Below, in pieces: positions 1,303 through 11,695 of a stretch of DNA of 11,827 bases. This stretch comes from Cohaesibacteraceae bacterium (GTDB lineage: Bacteria > Pseudomonadota > Alphaproteobacteria > Rhizobiales > Cohaesibacteraceae). Location of the stretch: the NCBI GenBank assembly GCA_016764535.1, contig JAESRR010000198.1:417-12243 (forward strand), given 5' to 3'. The notes under the pieces were generated by a model, which did not search any database, was not told the origin of the DNA, and was given only the letters and a program-made list of their open reading frames with translations. The first letter of the stretch is position 1, and each line of letters starts with the position of its first letter. The position numbers were made by a program, and so were the translations under genes.

Positions 1303-2076
1303 CTAACGGAACATCCGCCGCACAATGGTATTGATCCATTCCAGCGCCAGAATGACGATGGCAATGGCAATGGCAACCGTCGCGGTTTTCTCATATTGAA
1401 ATGACCGAACATAGGTCTGAATGAGAAAACCGATACCACCTGCACCGACAACACCAAGAACCAGAGATTCTCGCAAATTAAGCTCGAAGCGGAAGATCGT
1501 ATCACGCAGGATTGTCGGAGCCATTTGCGGCCAGATCCCATAACGCAGTTTTTGCAGCAGCGTCGCACCTGCACTTTCCAGAGCATCAACCGGTGTTTGA
1601 TTTACGTCTTCAATTGCTTCAGCATAGAATTTTGCCAGCATACCTGTTGCATGAAATGTAATTGCAAGAATTCCAGGCAAAGGCCCAAGACCAACAGCAC
1701 CAACCATCAACATGGCAATCAGGATCAGCGGGATAGATCGCATCAATGCCAGCAATAAACGTACCGGGCGATTGATCCATTTGGGAGAGATCGTATCAGC
1801 GGCAAGTGGTCCAAGAATGCAGGATGCAGCAACTGACCCAAAAGTCCCCAGAATTGCGATACGAAGTGTTTCCAGAATGCCCTTTTGAACTTCCGGCCAG
1901 ACACTCAAATCAGGGGGAAACATCCGGCCAAGGAAGGCGGCAAGACGCGGACCCGCTTCAACAAGGCGTGAGAGTTCAACATCACTGCCTGACCCTGCCC
2001 ACAGAATGGCAGCAGCGATCAATATACCGGTTAGCCAGCCCCTGTAACTTCGGTCATGCCTTAAGCGATCACTCAT
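1303..2076 (-). CDS. phnE: PhnE-type ABC transporter permease
   Basis: This is the integral membrane subunit of an ABC importer of the phosphonate/phosphite family (257 residues). Hydrophobic segments lie at about residues 13-29, 70-95, 104-130, 133-150, 205-223 and 231-249. The cytoplasmic EAA-like coupling loop that contacts the ATPase is at about 166-179 (ALESAGATLLQKLR). The segment LRESLVLGVVGAGGIGFL near the C terminus is typical of PhnE-like permeases. The start codon overlaps the stop of the upstream ATPase gene in an ATGA, so translation is probably coupled. It is the last gene of the four-gene minus-strand operon. The symbol gives the family only. No C-P lyase or other phosphonate catabolic gene is present, and the divergent mntR suggests that the substrate may be something else. 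Confidence 0.85.
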   Translation of the reverse strand: MSDRLRHDRSYRGWLTGILIAAAILWAGSGSDVELSRLVEAGPRLAAFLGRMFPPDLSVWPEVQKGILETLRIAILGTFGSVAASCILGPLAADTISPKWINRPVRLLLALMRSIPLILIAMLMVGAVGLGPLPGILAITFHATGMLAKFYAEAIEDVNQTPVDALESAGATLLQKLRYGIWPQMAPTILRDTIFRFELNLRESLVLGVVGAGGIGFLIQTYVRSFQYEKTATVAIAIAIVILALEWINTIVRRMFR

Positions 2077-2864
2077 CCAACAAGACGCAGGGCGTTATCT
2101 GCAACTGCTTCGGTTCCGTACACGTCCTGATACATTTCTGCAGTGAAGTCGGATGCACAGGTATCAAACGCCATTGCGCCTGCCCTTATGCCAATGATCC
2201 TGTCTGCAAAACGTTTGGCAAGATCCGGTTGGTGTGATGAAAACACCAGTGTCATATCCCGCTTCTGCCGAATTTGCGTCAATAATTTGAGTGTTTTTTC
2301 CGCACTTAACGGGTCCAGATTGCTTATGGGTTCATCTGCAAGCAACAATTCCGGTTCCTGTGCCAGACAACGGGCAATCGCCACGCGCTGCCTTTGGCCG
2401 CCGCTCAGACTATCGACGCGCTTATCAGCAAGTTCTGCGATACCCGCATCTTCTATCGCTTCATCAACAGCATCATAATCAAGTTGCGAAAATCTTCCAA
2501 ACAGCGATGCAACTGGACCTGTGTGACCAAGCCTGCCATTCATCACATTGCGTGCGACGCTGGCGCGCTCGACAAGTGCAAATTCCTGGAAGATAAACCC
2601 GGTTTTTGCCCGGTCAGTTCGAGACGGCGCCGTATGAGCATCGAGAGAATTACCCAAAACACTGACGGCTCCATTCCAGTTTCTCAATCGGCCATCCAGC
2701 AGTGCCAGCAAAGTTGACTTACCCGCACCCGATGGTCCGATAAGCGCAATTGTCGCGCCGCGTTCGACGCTAAAATCAAAACCAGTCAGAGATGGCTGAA
2801 TTACACCAGGATAGTGATGATTGACATCAGCGAGCGAGATTGCTGTACGAACGATAGTGTTCAT
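2073..2864 (-). CDS. phnC: PhnC-type ABC transporter ATP-binding protein
   Basis: This is the cytoplasmic ATPase of the same importer (263 residues, a normal length for PhnC). Walker A is at 43-50 (GPSGAGKS) and the Q-loop glutamine is near 93 (FIFQEF). The ABC signature LSGGQRQRVAIAR starts at about 153, Walker B is LLLADEP at 173-179, and the H-loop histidine is about 211 (SSHQPDL). All catalytic motifs are intact, so the pump should be functional. Its start overlaps the phnD-like stop by four bases and its stop overlaps the phnE-like start by four bases. This is the closest packing possible and argues for a stoichiometric complex. The EFALVERASVARNV stretch after the Q-loop is typical of the PhnC branch. 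The transported substrate cannot be read from this subunit. Confidence 0.9.
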   Translation of the reverse strand: MNTIVRTAISLADVNHHYPGVIQPSLTGFDFSVERGATIALIGPSGAGKSTLLALLDGRLRNWNGAVSVLGNSLDAHTAPSRTDRAKTGFIFQEFALVERASVARNVMNGRLGHTGPVASLFGRFSQLDYDAVDEAIEDAGIAELADKRVDSLSGGQRQRVAIARCLAQEPELLLADEPISNLDPLSAEKTLKLLTQIRQKRDMTLVFSSHQPDLAKRFADRIIGIRAGAMAFDTCASDFTAEMYQDVYGTEAVADNALRLVG

Positions 2865-3745
2865 TTCATAAATCCATAACGACGGGCAGCTTCGCGAATG
2901 GGTTCAAAAACTTCCGGATCTGACACTGCATATCCGTCCGGCCCGTATACATATTTAAGATATGCAGCGTTTTCCGGCTGGTTGAGAGACAACATGGCAG
3001 CAACAAAACGTGCCTGTAAATCTGCATCAATTCCGGATCTGGCAATCACAACATGAGAGGGAAGTGGTGCGGTTTCTGCGAGCCAGATCACTTCTGATTG
3101 CTGCTCCGGGGTCAATAAAAGATCGGCATACTGGCTGGCTGTAGCCGCATCAACAAGACCGGACGCCATGGCCTGCATGGCTTGCTGGTATCCACCGGCA
3201 AAGAATGTCCGGCGAAAAAAGCTGTCAGCCTTTGACGGGTCTTTGACCAGGCCCTGTTGTACAAATAAATCAAGCGGGAACAAATAACCGGATTCGGATA
3301 TCGGATCAGCGAACGCAATATCCTTGCCGCGCAATCCTTCAAGGCTGGTGATACCACTGTCCCGACGAACAAATACACGGCCCTTATATGTCGGAGCTCC
3401 GCGATAGATTTCCGACAATAACGGAACCGCGCCAATTTCTGCTTCGGCCAATACAAATGGCAATGCACCCATGAAAGAGATATCTGCATCTCCATTACGA
3501 AGGGCTTCAACCGCTGCTGCATGATCAAAGGTCACAAAGCCCTTGACCGGGGCACCAATTTTCTCTGAAAGAAAGGCGGAAATCTTCTTGATGTCGCCGA
3601 GCAGTTTATCCGGATTTTCCTGCGGGATAAAAGCCAGCGTCAGGCCCTCTCCCGCCAGAACCGGAGCTGCGACAAAACCAAACGACAGGATGATTGTAGC
3701 TGCCAGTGTCAGAAACCCCCGGCGGATCATATTAAATGTGGACAT
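2861..3745 (-). CDS. phnD: PhnD-type periplasmic substrate-binding protein
   Basis: This is the periplasmic binding protein of the PhnDCE-like importer (294 residues). The N terminus is an export signal: MIRRGFLTLAA, a hydrophobic stretch to about residue 28, and a plausible cleavage after VLA-31. The RRGFL segment resembles a twin-arginine motif. The mature part starts with LTLAFIPQENPDKLL, the usual opening of PhnD-like domains. It contains FADPISESGYLFP at about 145-157, matching the DP-S-SGY ligand-loop pattern of this family. The ATG overlaps the stop of the upstream di-haem gene (TAATG) and has a good ribosome binding site (AAGGA) eight bases upstream, inside that gene. Phosphate, phosphite, phosphonate, selenate-type oxyanions and unrelated ligands are all possible for this fold. 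The presence of mntR and a haem enzyme makes a metal- or redox-linked ligand an open possibility. Confidence 0.85.
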   Translation of the reverse strand: MSTFNMIRRGFLTLAATIILSFGFVAAPVLAGEGLTLAFIPQENPDKLLGDIKKISAFLSEKIGAPVKGFVTFDHAAAVEALRNGDADISFMGALPFVLAEAEIGAVPLLSEIYRGAPTYKGRVFVRRDSGITSLEGLRGKDIAFADPISESGYLFPLDLFVQQGLVKDPSKADSFFRRTFFAGGYQQAMQAMASGLVDAATASQYADLLLTPEQQSEVIWLAETAPLPSHVVIARSGIDADLQARFVAAMLSLNQPENAAYLKYVYGPDGYAVSDPEVFEPIREAARRYGFMK

Positions 3746-5673
3746 TAAAACATTCCTTCGGCAACAGCATCTTGCAGGGTTTTGAATTCATTCCAGGATT
3801 TTTGTGCAGCATCCCAGTCATCTTTTTTGATGTGGCTGGCGACTGAATTGAGAAGACCGGCCAGACGATAGACATCGGGTTTGGCATCAAGGTTTTTCAT
3901 GGTGCTGGCATCGGCAGCAAGATCGGGAGCAACCGTATTAATCATGATCAATGCGTGTTTGGCATCTTTCATCGGGATCAAAATATTCAGCGTTGTGGCA
4001 AAAGTTGTTAGTTCATCAAAGGCAAGACGGAACTTGGTATCAACATCATCAAACGCCTGGTAGGGCTCATCAGCACCACCAACCGTCTCGACATATTCCG
4101 TTAGATCAGCAAGTTGATCCTTTGACAGTCCGAGAGAAAAACGCGTATCAAACCAGTTCACCACGGCACCGAGAGTTGGCTGCGATCCATCGTGAAAATA
4201 CGGACCCGAAGAAGCTGTACTTAACAATGTCGGGGTATCGAATGCCTGCGCCAGCGCACCCTTGTATGCAGGTGGTTCTGTTCCAATATCATGGGCACGA
4301 CGATCCAGAAAATTGGCTGAAGGATCATGACAGGTCGCACAGGACTGACCATTCATATTTTTATATTCTGTATTGAACAGTATCTCACCACGACGCGCAG
4401 CATCACTGGCCTCATCGGTTAGATTTCCATCTGTTGTGATTTTGCTATTCGGCAAAAAGTCAAACTCACGCATATAGGCCAGAATGGCATCAAGCATGAA
4501 AGGGGTTGGTTCAGCACCGCCGAATTCGTTGACAATCACATTTCGGGTAAAGAAACGAAGGCTGCCAAAGCGACCGTCCCGACCATACGGGCCGGTCAAA
4601 CGAATACCGCGCAGGGAAGGTGTATCAAGCGAATCTGACCGGTGGTCATTGAACAGCGGGTTAAAGAAACCGCCATCAACATCGGCAGCTCCAGGCTGGT
4701 GACTAACACCCGGGATAAAGAAATTGCGATTGATATCGGAGCGATTGTGGCAAGTAGAACAGGAGACACCAAGGTTCTGCGCCACTTCACCAAATATCAC
4801 AGGGCTGTCAAACAACATATCACCATAGGCAACAAGTGGCAGGTCAGCCTCGTCAATACCGTGTCCCTCTTCAAAGTTGAGGACCAACATCGGGAACGGA
4901 TCCTGATCGTCAATTGTTCCACCTGGCGGCAGGGTGAATGCCAAATGAATACTCGCGCCACTGGCCGCGATGTTTTCAGGAGCTGCGTTAAATTCGAGTC
5001 GCGCGGTGAATGTTTCAGGCGCATAATTTGTGGCGATGTAGTCAGAGATAATCGAAAGAGCCGCGCCAAATTTCTCTGGATCGGTTTCAAGTGTCCCTGC
5101 GCCGAGCACACCGGATGAACCGGCAGCACTGTTTACATCAAGCCAGGCAAGTCCGGTTGAACGATATCCGTCCCGATCAAGAAAACGAATGCCATCTTCA
5201 AATGCCCGATAAAGCGCAGTCGCCCGCAACAATGCAGCCTTCGCCGATCCATCTTCAAGACCGTTATGAGCACGAGAAAGTTCTTCCAGCAGAGCCGTCG
5301 CCATCACCCGTGTTGTCACAGCATAAAGCGCCTGTGTATCCTTGCCAGCAAGCGCTTGTTTGATCTGCTCCACAAGAGCCGAACCGCCCGGACGTTTTGC
5401 CAGCGCATAAAATCCGCTAATAGAATCGGTGGTATTGGAGATAGGGTCAGCCCATGCGTCATTAATCTGTGACCACGGAACCGGTGTCATATTTGCCAGA
5501 AAAAGTGCCGTACGATATGCGGCGACATCCGGCTCATAGGGCGCTTGTTTTACCGCTGTTGCATATGCGCTTGTGGAAAACGCCAATGCCAGCAGCACCA
5601 TAATGGTGCAAGTGCTGAAAGAAATTACGCCGGAAAGCGCTTGTCGGGCTGAAAAATTGATATTTGTGAGCAT
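3745..5673 (-). CDS. Large exported di-haem cytochrome c peroxidase/MauG-family protein
   Basis: This is a periplasmic di-haem c-type protein of 642 residues. The start chosen is the ATG at 5673, with AGGA seven bases upstream; a GTG lies directly before it at 5676. Residues 1-39 form a Sec-type signal with a hydrophobic core (IMVLLALAF) and an AYA cleavage site. Two haem-binding motifs are visible, CSTCH at about 305-309 and CATCH at about 445-449. They are separated by the family segment DTPSLRGIRLTGPYGRDGRFGSL and followed by TPTLLSTASSGPYFHDGS, both typical of cytochrome c peroxidase/MauG proteins. The di-haem core (about 265-540) is flanked by an N-terminal, mostly helical region of about 220 residues and a helical C-terminal tail of about 100 residues. 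The protein is therefore roughly twice the usual length. It leads the operon and overlaps the PhnD-like gene by one base. Peroxide reduction or oxidation of a protein or metal substrate are both possible. Confidence 0.85.
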   Translation of the reverse strand: MLTNINFSARQALSGVISFSTCTIMVLLALAFSTSAYATAVKQAPYEPDVAAYRTALFLANMTPVPWSQINDAWADPISNTTDSISGFYALAKRPGGSALVEQIKQALAGKDTQALYAVTTRVMATALLEELSRAHNGLEDGSAKAALLRATALYRAFEDGIRFLDRDGYRSTGLAWLDVNSAAGSSGVLGAGTLETDPEKFGAALSIISDYIATNYAPETFTARLEFNAAPENIAASGASIHLAFTLPPGGTIDDQDPFPMLVLNFEEGHGIDEADLPLVAYGDMLFDSPVIFGEVAQNLGVSCSTCHNRSDINRNFFIPGVSHQPGAADVDGGFFNPLFNDHRSDSLDTPSLRGIRLTGPYGRDGRFGSLRFFTRNVIVNEFGGAEPTPFMLDAILAYMREFDFLPNSKITTDGNLTDEASDAARRGEILFNTEYKNMNGQSCATCHDPSANFLDRRAHDIGTEPPAYKGALAQAFDTPTLLSTASSGPYFHDGSQPTLGAVVNWFDTRFSLGLSKDQLADLTEYVETVGGADEPYQAFDDVDTKFRLAFDELTTFATTLNILIPMKDAKHALIMINTVAPDLAADASTMKNLDAKPDVYRLAGLLNSVASHIKKDDWDAAQKSWNEFKTLQDAVAEGMF

Positions 5674-5684
5674 CACCAGGTCCT

Positions 5685-5706
5685 AAAGTTAGCCATGGCT
5701 AATCTT
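5685..5706. promoter_or_regulatory. Probable MntR operator (22-bp dyad)
   Basis: A perfect 14-bp palindrome, TTAGCCATGGCTAA (5689-5702), is extended by two matching A/T pairs after a two-base mismatch on each side. This gives AA-N2-TTAGC-N4-GCTAA-N2-TT. From memory, the E. coli MntR box has the form AACATAGC-N4-GCTATGTT, so half-site sequence, spacing and outer A/T pairs line up closely. The site sits between mntR and the di-haem/PhnDCE operon and covers the predicted +1 and the edge of the -10 of the latter. Binding by metal-loaded MntR would block transcription. It may also autoregulate mntR. Binding is inferred; the dyad itself is directly visible. Confidence 0.72.
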
Positions 5707-5732
5707 CTATGCCACATCTAACAACTTGTAAA
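5704..5732 (-). promoter_or_regulatory. Predicted sigma70-type promoter of the di-haem/PhnDCE operon
   Basis: Reading the minus strand, TTTACA (5732-5727, five of six matches to TTGACA) is followed after exactly 17 bases by TAGAAG (5709-5704, four of six matches to TATAAT). Transcription would start near 5697, inside the palindrome at 5689-5702. That leaves a leader of about 24 bases to the ATG at 5673. The spacing is ideal but the -10 match is modest, so this is a prediction from sequence only. Confidence 0.5.
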
Positions 5733-5760
5733 GTGCCTTGTGATGTTCCAAAAGAAACAA

Positions 5761-6225
5761 ATGGAATCAAACAATGACAAACCTTCGACGCCCACAAATG
5801 CCGGTTCGACCGGATCGCCCGGAACACAGGCCCAGGCCAAGGGATTTCAGGCTGTTCGTAAAGCTCATCAAAGTGAAATCGTCGAAGACTATGTCGAATT
5901 AATATCTGATTTGATTGAACAATGCGGCGAGGCACGTCCAGTTGATATCGCCAGTCATATGGGGGTCACCCAGCCAACAGTCGTAAAAAACCTGGCGCGG
6001 TTACAAAGAGACGGTTTCATTACGCGAGAAAAATATCGTTCAATATTTCTCACCAAAACCGGTGCAGACCTCGCCAACATCTGTCGACACCGACATCGGA
6101 TCATTGTGGCGTTTCTATTGCATCTGGGGCTTGATGCTGAAACTGCTGAACATGATGCCGAGGGCCTCGAACATCATGTCAGTAATAAAACACTCGCTGC
6201 GTTTGAAGCTGCTCTTGAGAAATGA
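5761..6225 (+). CDS. mntR: Manganese-responsive transcriptional regulator MntR (DtxR family)
   Basis: This is a metal-dependent DNA-binding repressor of the DtxR/MntR family (154 residues from the ATG at 5761). After a low-complexity N terminus rich in S, T, P and G, the conserved domain starts at KGFQAVRKAH, as in the E. coli type. A winged helix-turn-helix covers about 43-100 (VDIASHMGVTQPTVVKNLARL), and a dimerisation/metal region follows. All six residues equivalent to the B. subtilis MntR metal ligands can be placed: D43 and E46 in EDYVE, H112 in RHRHRII, and E134, E137 and H138 in DAEGLEHH. Metal sensing should therefore be intact, and there is no SH3-like extension, as expected for MntR. 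In-frame upstream starts exist (GTG 5740, ATG 5743), and no start has a strong ribosome binding site, so the exact N terminus is uncertain. It is divergent from the di-haem/PhnDCE operon, with the operator between them. Confidence 0.9.
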   Translation: MESNNDKPSTPTNAGSTGSPGTQAQAKGFQAVRKAHQSEIVEDYVELISDLIEQCGEARPVDIASHMGVTQPTVVKNLARLQRDGFITREKYRSIFLTKTGADLANICRHRHRIIVAFLLHLGLDAETAEHDAEGLEHHVSNKTLAAFEAALEK

Positions 6226-8418: not shown

Positions 8419-9816
8419 CTATCTCAATCCATCCACACTGGAAGGTTCCACGCGCTCAAAACAATTGATCCGCGGACACAAACGACAACCCGGACCAATG
8501 CGGGCAATATTACCGCTGTCATTGAGATCCAAACCATCGAAATAGACAATCTTGCGCGCATGAATAATGTCACAGCCAAGGCCAATGGAAAAGTGCCGTT
8601 GCGGCGCGCCATAACGTGCTTCACCCTTTGTCACCGAACGGGCAATACAACAAAACGTGGTTTGATCGGGCATTTGCGACAGCTGCGCTGAAATCCGGCC
8701 AGCGTTTAAAAAAGCTGTGTAGACATTCCATTTGGGGCAGGCCCCGGTATGTCTGGGAATATGAATGCCTGAGAGAGAAAAGCGTTTGGATATATTACCT
8801 GCAATATCGGTGCGAATGAGGTGAAACGGTACACCCTGCGCGCCAGGTTTTTGAAGATTTGTAAATCTGTGACACACCTGCTCAAAACTGGTTCCATATT
8901 TGTGCGCCAAAAAATCAATATCATAGCGATGCAATTGTGCGTCATCCAGAAAAGCTTCATACGGCATCAACAATGCAGCAGCAAAATAGCTGGATAGTGC
9001 AGATCGTGCCAACGCATCTATTTTGGGATGGCCAAATTGCCCCCGCGAAACCAGCGCATCAATCTCGATAGAAGCAACGCGCAGTCCCAGATGTCTGGCG
9101 ACTGAAAACCGCCTTGTTGAGGGTGTAATTCCAGTGCGGAACCGCAGGATATCATCATCCGGCAGGCTCAAACTCAAATGTGGTTCGTCCCCGGCAACGG
9201 AGTAATCTTCAACCACCTCGACACCAAACACATTATACAGCCAGGATTCCATAGCGCGATCCGGACCATACTGGTCAAAATCCATCTCCATGCGCACACG
9301 ATCCGCCGCAAGTTCAAGGCTGGCAAAATAATTGGCCCGTTCCTGAATGAAATCAGAGACCGGTTCCAGTAGAGATCGGTGAGAAATCGGTTCATCTGCA
9401 TTGATCTGTGATACCGACGCTCCATCCAGGTTTCCGCCCGATTGGCGCATTTTCAATATCTGGTCATAAAGCTGAACAATGGTACGCGCGACAGTCGGGT
9501 TAGACGCCACAATGTCCTTTACATCCTGATTGGTGATATCGCTGTCAAGAAATGTGTCATCGCTGTAAACTTCCATAAGATCACCAGCGAGCCGCGCATC
9601 ATTATTTTCCTGAATATCTGCAACGTCAATATTGAAGATACCAGCCAGTTTTAACAGTATTTGTACCGTCAGATTACGCCGGTTATGTTCGATCAAATTG
9701 ACATAACTGGGTGAAACTCCCAGCAATACTGCCAGTTCTTTCTGTGACATCTTGCGGGCGCGGCGCAATCTGCGCACTTTGCCGCCAAACTGGATCTGAT
9801 CCGCTTTACCTGCCAC
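8419..9816 (-). CDS. ScfR-family acyl-CoA-responsive regulator (RamB/PrpR/PccR-like)
   Basis: This is a transcription factor of the short-chain fatty acyl-CoA regulator family, whose members control glyoxylate shunt or propionyl-CoA genes (465 residues from GTG 9816). An XRE-type helix-turn-helix spans about 11-66 (MSQKELAVLLGVSPSYVNLIEHNRRNLT). A middle region related to the ImmA/IrrE fold follows, in which I see no HExxH zinc site. The C-terminal domain carries C360 (HTGACPKW) and C444, C447 and C452 in CRLCPRINC. In M. tuberculosis PrpR such cysteines hold an Fe-S cluster. The frame extends to a TTG at 9837, but GTG 9816 has GGGAG six bases upstream and is preferred. It is divergent from a small gene and aceA, so aceA is its likely target. 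The intervening TTTACA repeats are likely operators. The two sugar genes follow after 61 bases. Confidence 0.86.
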   Translation of the reverse strand: MAGKADQIQFGGKVRRLRRARKMSQKELAVLLGVSPSYVNLIEHNRRNLTVQILLKLAGIFNIDVADIQENNDARLAGDLMEVYSDDTFLDSDITNQDVKDIVASNPTVARTIVQLYDQILKMRQSGGNLDGASVSQINADEPISHRSLLEPVSDFIQERANYFASLELAADRVRMEMDFDQYGPDRAMESWLYNVFGVEVVEDYSVAGDEPHLSLSLPDDDILRFRTGITPSTRRFSVARHLGLRVASIEIDALVSRGQFGHPKIDALARSALSSYFAAALLMPYEAFLDDAQLHRYDIDFLAHKYGTSFEQVCHRFTNLQKPGAQGVPFHLIRTDIAGNISKRFSLSGIHIPRHTGACPKWNVYTAFLNAGRISAQLSQMPDQTTFCCIARSVTKGEARYGAPQRHFSIGLGCDIIHARKIVYFDGLDLNDSGNIARIGPGCRLCPRINCFERVEPSSVDGLR

Positions 9817-9837
9817 CAAACGCTCCCGTCTAAACAA

Positions 9838-10011: not shown

Positions 10012-10257
10012 ATGAGTGACATGGAACACACACAGATCGGACCTTCAGGACAGGAAACCGAGTGCATTACCATTGTTGCTCGCGATAGCGCGGCAGCAAC
10101 AAAAGAATTTCACAAACGTGGCCTGCAAAGGGCCGGATATTCAATTGCTTCCAAGGTCGTGCGTCATACTTTCGCGTTTATTGATGAGAACGGCATAAAC
10201 CAGTCGTTGTTTGGCGGCGAAACCGTCTACGCAGCGACCTACAGTCGCGCCATCTAG
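10012..10257 (+). CDS. Small protein of unknown function upstream of aceA
   Basis: This 81-residue protein has a good ribosome binding site (GAGG five bases before the ATG) and fills the space between the operator region and aceA. I cannot assign a function. The sequence reads as a compact alpha/beta fold: a hydrophilic N terminus, a strand ECITIVARD, a helix with AAATKEFHKRGLQ, a strand YSIASKVVRHTFAFI, then GINQSLFGGETVYAATYSR. There is no signal peptide, membrane segment or cysteine pair. From general memory, short proteins of similar make-up (AR-RGL-GY, then LF-GE--YAAT at the end) occur near aceA in other alphaproteobacteria, but I cannot verify this here. Its position directly behind the presumed ScfR operators suggests co-regulation with isocitrate lyase. 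A role as modulator of AceA or of the regulator is only a guess. Confidence 0.72.
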   Translation: MSDMEHTQIGPSGQETECITIVARDSAAATKEFHKRGLQRAGYSIASKVVRHTFAFIDENGINQSLFGGETVYAATYSRAI

Positions 10258-10408: not shown

Positions 10409-11695
10409 ATGAACCAAATGGATCGTAATTTTTTCGCCGCCCCTGACTGGGCTCCCGATCGCTGGAAGAACATCTCTCGTGATTATACCCAAAAAGATAT
10501 TGATGAACTAAAGGGTTCATTGCCTATCGCCATGTCCCTGGCCGAAAACGGTGCCAAACGCTTGTGGGAACTCCTGCACAAGGAGGACTTTGTTCCCACC
10601 CTTGGTACATTCACCGGCAATCAGGCTGTTCAACAAATCAAGGCTGGTTTGAAAGCCATTTATCTTTCTGGCTGGCAGGTTGCAGCAGACGCCAATAATT
10701 CCGGCAACATGTATCCAGATCAAAGCCTCTATCCTGCCGACAGCGTTCCATCAGTAGTGAAGCGGATCAACCGCGCCCTGCAACGCGCCGATCAGATCCA
10801 GACCATGGAGCAGCGCCAGGGTATTGAGACAACCGATCTTGATTTCTTCGCACCGATTATTGCCGACGCCGAAGCCGGGTTTGGTGGTCAGCTAAACGCT
10901 TTTGAATTGATGAAAGCGATGATCGAAGCCGGTGCAGCAGCAGTACATTTTGAGGATCAACTAGCGTCAGAAAAGAAATGTGGCCATCTTGGCGGCAAAG
11001 TTCTGGTTCCAACCCAACAGTTTATTCGCACACTGAATGCAGCCCGCCTCGCTGCCGACATTTTGGATGTTCCAACACTGATCATGGCCCGGACCGACGC
11101 GGAAGCCGCGCGTCTTGTGACCAGTGACGTCGACGAACGTGACCGTCGTTTCCTCACCGGCGAACGCACATCGGAAGGCTTTTACCGGATGACCGGCGGT
11201 CTCGATTGTGCCATTGCCCGGGGCATCGCCTATGCACCCTATGCCGACCTTATCTGGTGTGAAACCTCAACCCCGGATCTGGCTCAGGCAAAACGATATG
11301 CCGAGGAAATCAGGAAAGTACATCCAGATCAAATGCTGGCCTATAATTGCTCGCCATCATTTAACTGGGCCAAACATCTAGGCGTTGATCAGATGAAGAA
11401 ATTCCAGGCCGAGCTTGGTGCCATGGGGTATAAATATCAGTTCATCACTCTCGCCGGGTTCCACAATACCAGTTACACCACGTTCAAGCTGGCACAGGAT
11501 TATGCGGAAGATGGCATGGCGGCCTATTCCCGTCTGCAACAGGCAGAGTTTGCGGCAGAAGCAACAGGCTTTTCGGCGACACGACACCAGCGTGAAGTTG
11601 GAACCAGCTATTTTGATGCGGTTTCCCTTGCCATCTCCCAGGGCCAGTCCGCAACAACTGCAATGAAAGATTCAACCGAAACAGCTCAGTTCTAA
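10409..11695 (+). CDS. aceA: Isocitrate lyase
   Basis: This is the glyoxylate-shunt enzyme that cleaves isocitrate to glyoxylate and succinate in the cytoplasm, allowing growth on acetate, fatty acids and other C2-yielding substrates. The 428-residue length fits the short bacterial type. The catalytic loop KKCGH is intact at 189-193 ([19 protein letters not shown]). Other family landmarks are [12 protein letters not shown] (about 85-96), [12 protein letters not shown] (about 149-160), AAAVHFEDQ (about 177-184), [12 protein letters not shown] and the late YNCSPSFNW. The ATG at 10409 has only a poor GGA upstream, and a second ATG follows at 10418, so the exact start is slightly uncertain. The gene follows the small unknown gene after a 151-base leader with a hairpin. 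It is probably controlled by the divergent ScfR-like regulator. The glyoxylate-shunt partner malate synthase is not in the window. Confidence 0.97.

Follow-up and report, generated by a model that had tools for sequence, protein, structure and literature searches.

What does an importer of the phosphonate type carry when its operon diverges from a gene for a manganese sensor and includes a gene for a di-haem enzyme? The question is raised by an 11,827-nucleotide stretch of a Cohaesibacteraceae bacterium (contig JAESRR010000198.1; hereafter the window), in which mntR is divergent from four minus-strand genes in the order di-haem protein, phnD, phnC and phnE. The locus is more than a chance arrangement, because its relatives keep both the gene order and a promoter box: the five-gene cassette is real, mobile and conserved, and is often found on plasmids of marine bacteria. 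Judged by its sequence, it probably represents a manganese or trivalent-metal uptake system of a new kind. The coordinates of the open reading frames give overlaps of 1, 4 and 4 bases at the di-haem/phnD, phnD/phnC and phnC/phnE junctions, as the initial annotation had described, and since phnE falls beyond the interval marked there, the unit is taken here as positions 1303-6225. The same annotation had proposed a large di-haem protein with a full PhnD-PhnC-PhnE-type importer, and domain matches at the family level agree with it. At the stricter level of equivalogs, MntR (201.9 bits against the proteobacterial MntR model NF008273, cut-off 153) and PhnE (260 bits against TIGR01097, cut-off 216.7) exceed their cut-offs, whereas PhnC (226.5 bits against TIGR02315, cut-off 266.1) and PhnD do not.

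The closest Protein Data Bank match of the regulator is 2h09, by its description the MntR of Escherichia coli, and residues D50, E53, H119, E141, E144 and H145 align with the six residues that bind metal in Bacillus MntR, which we take to be D8, E11, H77, E99, E102 and H103, so that the complete metal site claimed earlier is indeed present. Using these presumed positions, the DEHEEH set is kept in 34/34 MntR proteins from rows of our comparison that have the regulator; these rows represent at most 33 distinct loci, because L003 and L090 denote one and the same locus, and several of the plasmids are near-identical in this stretch. The pattern TTAG-N6-CTAA lies in the divergent promoter of all 34 rows, with a second box further upstream in four, and a hexamer stands 29-30 bases upstream of the box, TTGACA in 33 rows and TTTACA in the window. 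At up to two mismatches, the box has two matches in the window against 0.28 expected. A repressor bound at this spot would sit across the start region of the promoter that drives the operon. Control of the operon by MntR, supported by this conserved box in the divergent promoter, is highly probable.

Table 1. Positions in the window of the genes and promoter elements of the mntR-linked unit
Feature	Positions	Strand	Remarks
mntR	5740-6225	+	161 aa; DtxR-family Mn sensor; NCBIfam NF008273
Di-haem CCP/MauG-like gene	3745-5676	-	643 aa; PF03150
phnD (binding protein)	2861-3745	-	PF12974
phnC (PhnC-like ATPase)	2073-2864	-	PF00005
phnE (PhnE-like permease)	1303-2076	-	TIGR01097
Candidate MntR operator TTAGCCATGGCTAA, perfect palindrome	5689-5702		Exact pattern match
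Candidate -35 hexamer TTTACA of the operon promoter	5727-5732	-	TTGACA in the other 33/34 rows

The conservation of the unit was followed in genomes and on plasmids. Among 394 genomes of the family to which Candidatus Halocynthiibacter alkanivorans (G386, locus L003) belongs, 21 have a di-haem match with an E-value of 1e-100 or lower, and in all 21 mntR is found on one side of the di-haem gene and phnD on the other. Full-length members of the PhnD clade (E <1e-100) occur, among 389 family genomes, in exactly those same 21, the next relatives following at E 1.7e-24 and weaker. Both loci taken from genome contigs likewise carry mntR beside the operon, one of them being also counted among the 21. 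Of 385 genomes sampled evenly across the class, 7 match the di-haem protein at 1e-60; PhnD lies beside it only in the window's own genome and in G124, the other five matching the core alone. Separately, genome G726 holds two partial copies of the module PhnD covering residues 151-293 (C212:14383-14811 and C31:5524-5952; E 2.6e-59 and 1.1e-57), and the search of the 394 genomes gave no di-haem match in it.

The di-haem protein has matches in 72 records of the plasmid collection, and in 43 of these the match spans at least 80% of the protein's length. PhnD at 60-80% identity is present in 42 records, which are exactly 42 of these 43 accessions, and the next PhnD listed has 31.7% identity. In the 43rd record, NZ_CP045626, the di-haem match touches the record start, so its neighbour is not visible. 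Eight opened regions, from Pontibrevibacter, Phaeobacter, Salipiger, Pseudosulfitobacter, Martelella, Labrenzia, Roseibium and Leisingera, contain these five genes in unchanged order, as do two more, from Ruegeria and Leisingera aquaemixtae. At least 29 of the 43 records have mntR adjoining the di-haem gene (27 among the 60 matches listed and two in opened regions), as do 10/10 opened plasmid regions holding the full operon. The initial annotation would have given up its reading had relatives not kept mntR next to the operon; the regulator is adjacent in all 21 family genomes, in the ten opened plasmid regions and in both genome-contig loci, with G124 as the one exception among operon carriers. 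Two further observations concern the plasmids. At six loci (L012-L016 and L027) the cassette sits amid genes for lspA, lnt, DUF411, ZIP, SCO, PCu(A)C, a P-type ATPase and an L,D-transpeptidase, a metal-related region shared by conjugative or mobilizable plasmids. On Dinoroseobacter shibae pDSHI03 (L021:5571-5846) and Phaeobacter inhibens pP88_b (L022:5571-5846), mntR is kept beside a di-haem remnant (residues 39-95, 40% identity, annotated as hypothetical), with no PhnDCE match near the two.

The pocket of the binding protein bears on the cargo. This protein belongs to the PhnD family (PF12974, 177.1 bits, cut-off 27) and exceeds TIGR01098 (138.7 bits, cut-off 112.05), while remaining below the PhnD equivalog TIGR03431 (138.1 bits, cut-off 261.1). 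Its predicted model, with a predicted local distance difference test score (pLDDT) of 87.3, has ArrX, AioX and PtxB as nearest folds, and Arg-Arg occurs within the first 35 residues, the leader, in 54/54 sequences of the clade. The STS-H oxyanion motif of phosphite-binding proteins, as defined in PMC5700983, is lost together with its Tyr cap in 54/54 sequences, and S150-E151-S152 with Y186 is found in all 54. A glutamate occupies the anion pocket; Glu151, Tyr186 and His231 are invariant in the clade, and Tyr120 corresponds to PtxB Y94. In an unguided alignment, Tyr120, Tyr186 and His231 pair with three of the four iron ligands in the N-lobe of transferrin, which are presumably Asp63, Tyr95, Tyr188 and His249. 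Such a Tyr/His/carboxylate set also resembles that of ferric-binding proteins. For this protein, the name 'phosphonate' is very probably a misnomer. As the pocket lacks the phosphite motif, a metal is favoured and the oxyanion that the initial annotation had entertained as a cargo is disfavoured; a metal rather than a phosphorus oxyanion is, in our judgement, the likely cargo.

Manganese is suggested by what else occupies the same slot. On a Paracoccus marcusii plasmid (L024), an Nramp transporter gene is divergent from mntR behind the same box, and since a known manganese importer family fills the same position, this is the strongest indirect evidence for manganese, which we consider a reasonably probable cargo. 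At two other plasmid loci (L023:3453-5629 and L025:3495-5671), a short multicopper oxidase and a ZIP-like protein are divergent from mntR with the same TTAGCC box; in L025, the one scanned, these have 332 and 393 residues, and the ZIP match is just below the Pfam cut-off.

The di-haem protein matches PF03150 (CCP_MauG; 36.5 bits, cut-off 25.6), and its two CXXCH motifs (C306/C309/H310 and C446/C449/H450) are invariant in a 48-sequence alignment. Helical parts precede and follow the haem core in the predicted model (mean pLDDT 67.6, with the core poor). The core is related to a Bradyrhizobium cytochrome c peroxidase (CCP) across residues 262-634 of the window's protein. As an observation in its own right, genes for an EfeM/EfeO (M75) lipoprotein and for a protein related to the di-haem core lie together on a Bradyrhizobium plasmid (L020:7027-9185). 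The helical parts themselves gave no PF09375 match at E up to 10 and no hhalign match to that Bradyrhizobium EfeO protein. The enzyme may serve in Mn(II) oxidation, in maturation of the binding protein or in peroxide removal.

How might these parts work together? That they form an MntR-repressed, redox-coupled metal uptake unit, most likely for manganese and switched on when manganese is scarce, has in our view about even chances and is the best of the explanations weighed. Manganese-loaded MntR would occupy the box and block the operon promoter, and low manganese would lead to production of the di-haem protein and the importer. The binding protein could hold a transition metal through Tyr120, Tyr186, His231 and a carboxylate, with Glu151 as a first guess, and a ligand set of this transferrin-like kind would suit a trivalent ion of the hard type. 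The redox partner would be the di-haem enzyme in the periplasm, most simply through conversion of Mn(II) into Mn(III), the acceptor being H2O2 or some other compound, and PhnC and PhnE would then carry the metal in. The step to Mn(III) is a tentative proposal; the complete scheme, a plasmid-spread, manganese-repressed Mn(III) importer with di-haem oxidation of Mn(II), capture by Tyr/Tyr/His/Glu on a PhnD fold and PhnCE-type import, is rather unlikely as a whole. In that scheme, the pair of multicopper oxidase and ZIP-like genes that fills this slot on other plasmids would represent another version of the Mn(III) importer. Manganese oxidation has been linked to higher intracellular manganese in Pseudomonas putida GB-1 (PMC3798386).

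Several observations weigh against a manganese importer of this kind. In the transferrin comparison, Asp63 pairs with M92 and is thus unmatched, the Arg/Thr anion site has no counterpart, the C-lobe alignment pairs two of four ligands, fewer than the three of the N-lobe, hhalign gives a probability of 3.9, melanotransferrin at E 0.0066 falls short of a significant sequence match, and the Pfam transferrin profile has no match at E up to 10 in the window protein and four relatives. In the window's own genome, the box with one mismatch is no rarer than its reversed control, which in fact has more matches, so the weight of the box rests on its position and conservation. G124 carries the operon without mntR at the locus (L051, G124:C384); no MntR match was found in the whole genome and no box within 400 bases upstream of the operon. 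The C-P (carbon-phosphorus) lyase protein PhnJ is encoded elsewhere in 9/22 module genomes; in the other 13, the window's own included, no PhnJ match was found, and the tie is not an obligate one. Finally, 7/21 module genomes also have Nramp or SitA.

This last count bears on the earlier proposal that the module replaces mntH or sitABCD, which is weakly supported. Nramp was found above cut-off in 67/394 family genomes and a SitA-like protein in 160/394 (Pseudovibrio query, 1e-50); within the 21 module genomes, Nramp occurs in one, SitA in six and neither in 14. In favour of replacement, both are absent from 14/21 module genomes and from 160/373 others, a weak excess by Fisher's test (p=0.04, genome completeness being unstated), with p=0.23 for Nramp alone and p=0.36 for SitA alone; against it stand the seven genomes that keep one or the other. 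Viewed singly, four module genomes all have a ZnuA-family protein, and only G124 has Nramp. By eye, the ZnuA-family protein of the window's own genome (87% complete) contains a loop rich in His, like that of zinc proteins, and Pseudovibrio additionally has a Sit-like operon.

Other explanations keep part of this picture. The importer might take up manganese while the di-haem enzyme modifies the binding protein, oxidising one of its side chains and so completing the metal site. There is a precedent in the copper protein CorA, which has a kynurenine by its site and is co-transcribed with the di-haem peroxidase-like CorB; the authors of PMC3912023 suggest that CorB makes this kynurenine. The window enzyme matches the MauG and MbnH models weakly, and seven tyrosines of the PhnD clade are invariant or nearly so. 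Yet its scores (44.9 bits against 443.85 for TIGR03791 and 42 against 362.85 for TIGR04039) are far short of both cut-offs, and kynurenine chemistry is disfavoured because no tryptophan is invariant in the clade (W221 is present in 48/54), which leaves this explanation improbable. Equally hard to favour is a single switch for two separate services, with PhnDCE importing Mn(II) and the enzyme, as a cytochrome c peroxidase, removing H2O2 while manganese-dependent defence is weak. Membership in CCP_MauG would fit, and manganese shortage and peroxide stress coincide in many bacteria; that the enzyme and the PhnD clade occur together, one to one, in 21/21 genomes suggests instead a physical partnership, and Tyr-Tyr-His-Glu would be better suited to a trivalent ion than to Mn(II). 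An importer of ferric ions that uses transferrin-like ligands, and that MntR represses for the balance of manganese and iron, would account for a ligand set that is that of iron proteins, Fe(III) being the usual ion of Tyr-Tyr-His sites. It appears quite unlikely, given that an MntR of the manganese type always stands beside the unit in the rows with a regulator, that Nramp occupies the slot elsewhere, and that no iron regulator was noticed in the opened regions, though no search was aimed at one. An oxyanion importer as annotated (phosphonate, phosphite or other), with mntR as a neighbour of no functional weight, would explain the family match, the PhnE score, the nearest folds and the nine genomes with PhnJ, but is very improbable in view of the lost motif, the glutamate in the anion pocket, the PhnD and PhnC scores, the 13 genomes without a PhnJ match and the ten opened plasmid regions, where no phosphonate gene is annotated beside the operon.

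The module shares some features with several known systems and differs from each in others. With the PhnD/PtxB/HtxB oxyanion importers it has in common the fold, the phnD-phnC-phnE set and the profiles PF12974, TIGR01097 and TIGR01098; it differs in the lost phosphite motif, the invariant E151/Y186/H231, the di-haem partner and regulation by MntR instead of by phosphate or phosphonate. Transferrin and ferric-binding proteins share its two-lobed binding-protein fold and, for transferrin, the three paired ligands, whereas the module has neither Asp63 nor the Arg/Thr anion site, gives no Pfam match and has a bacterial ATP-binding cassette (ABC) partner. MntH (Nramp) and SitABCD are known targets of MntR or Mur, and the Paracoccus marcusii Nramp gene uses the same mntR-divergent slot and box; unlike them, the module has a transporter unrelated to Nramp, a binding-protein family other than that of SitA and a redox enzyme in the operon. 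Fet3-Ftr1 and EfeUOB are oxidase- or peroxidase-coupled iron uptake systems, and like them the module ties a redox enzyme to a metal transporter, a likeness extended by the distant Bradyrhizobium core relative adjoining an EfeO/M75 lipoprotein; yet enzyme, binding protein and transporter are all different, and the helical parts lack a match to that lipoprotein. In the copper-protein systems CorA/CorB, MopE/SACCP and MbnP/MbnH, a di-haem CCP-like enzyme is co-transcribed with a metal-binding protein that its own metal represses (PMC3912023), and the module departs from them in its metal, its fold, its lack of an invariant tryptophan and its ABC importer.

If the proposal is true, many marine Alphaproteobacteria carry a metal importer under the annotation 'phosphonate transporter', and present readings of marine phosphonate use would need correction. 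It would add an architecture beside MntH and SitABCD in a family where 174/394 sampled genomes showed neither, and would make directly testable whether bacteria oxidise manganese for uptake. An Mn(III) importer would be the manganese counterpart of oxidase-coupled iron uptake.

Outside the unit, the window holds an open reading frame of 81 aa with no Pfam or NCBIfam match at E 0.001 (10012-10257, +), which lies between the genes for a RamB-like regulator (8419-9837, -) and isocitrate lyase (10409-11695, +).

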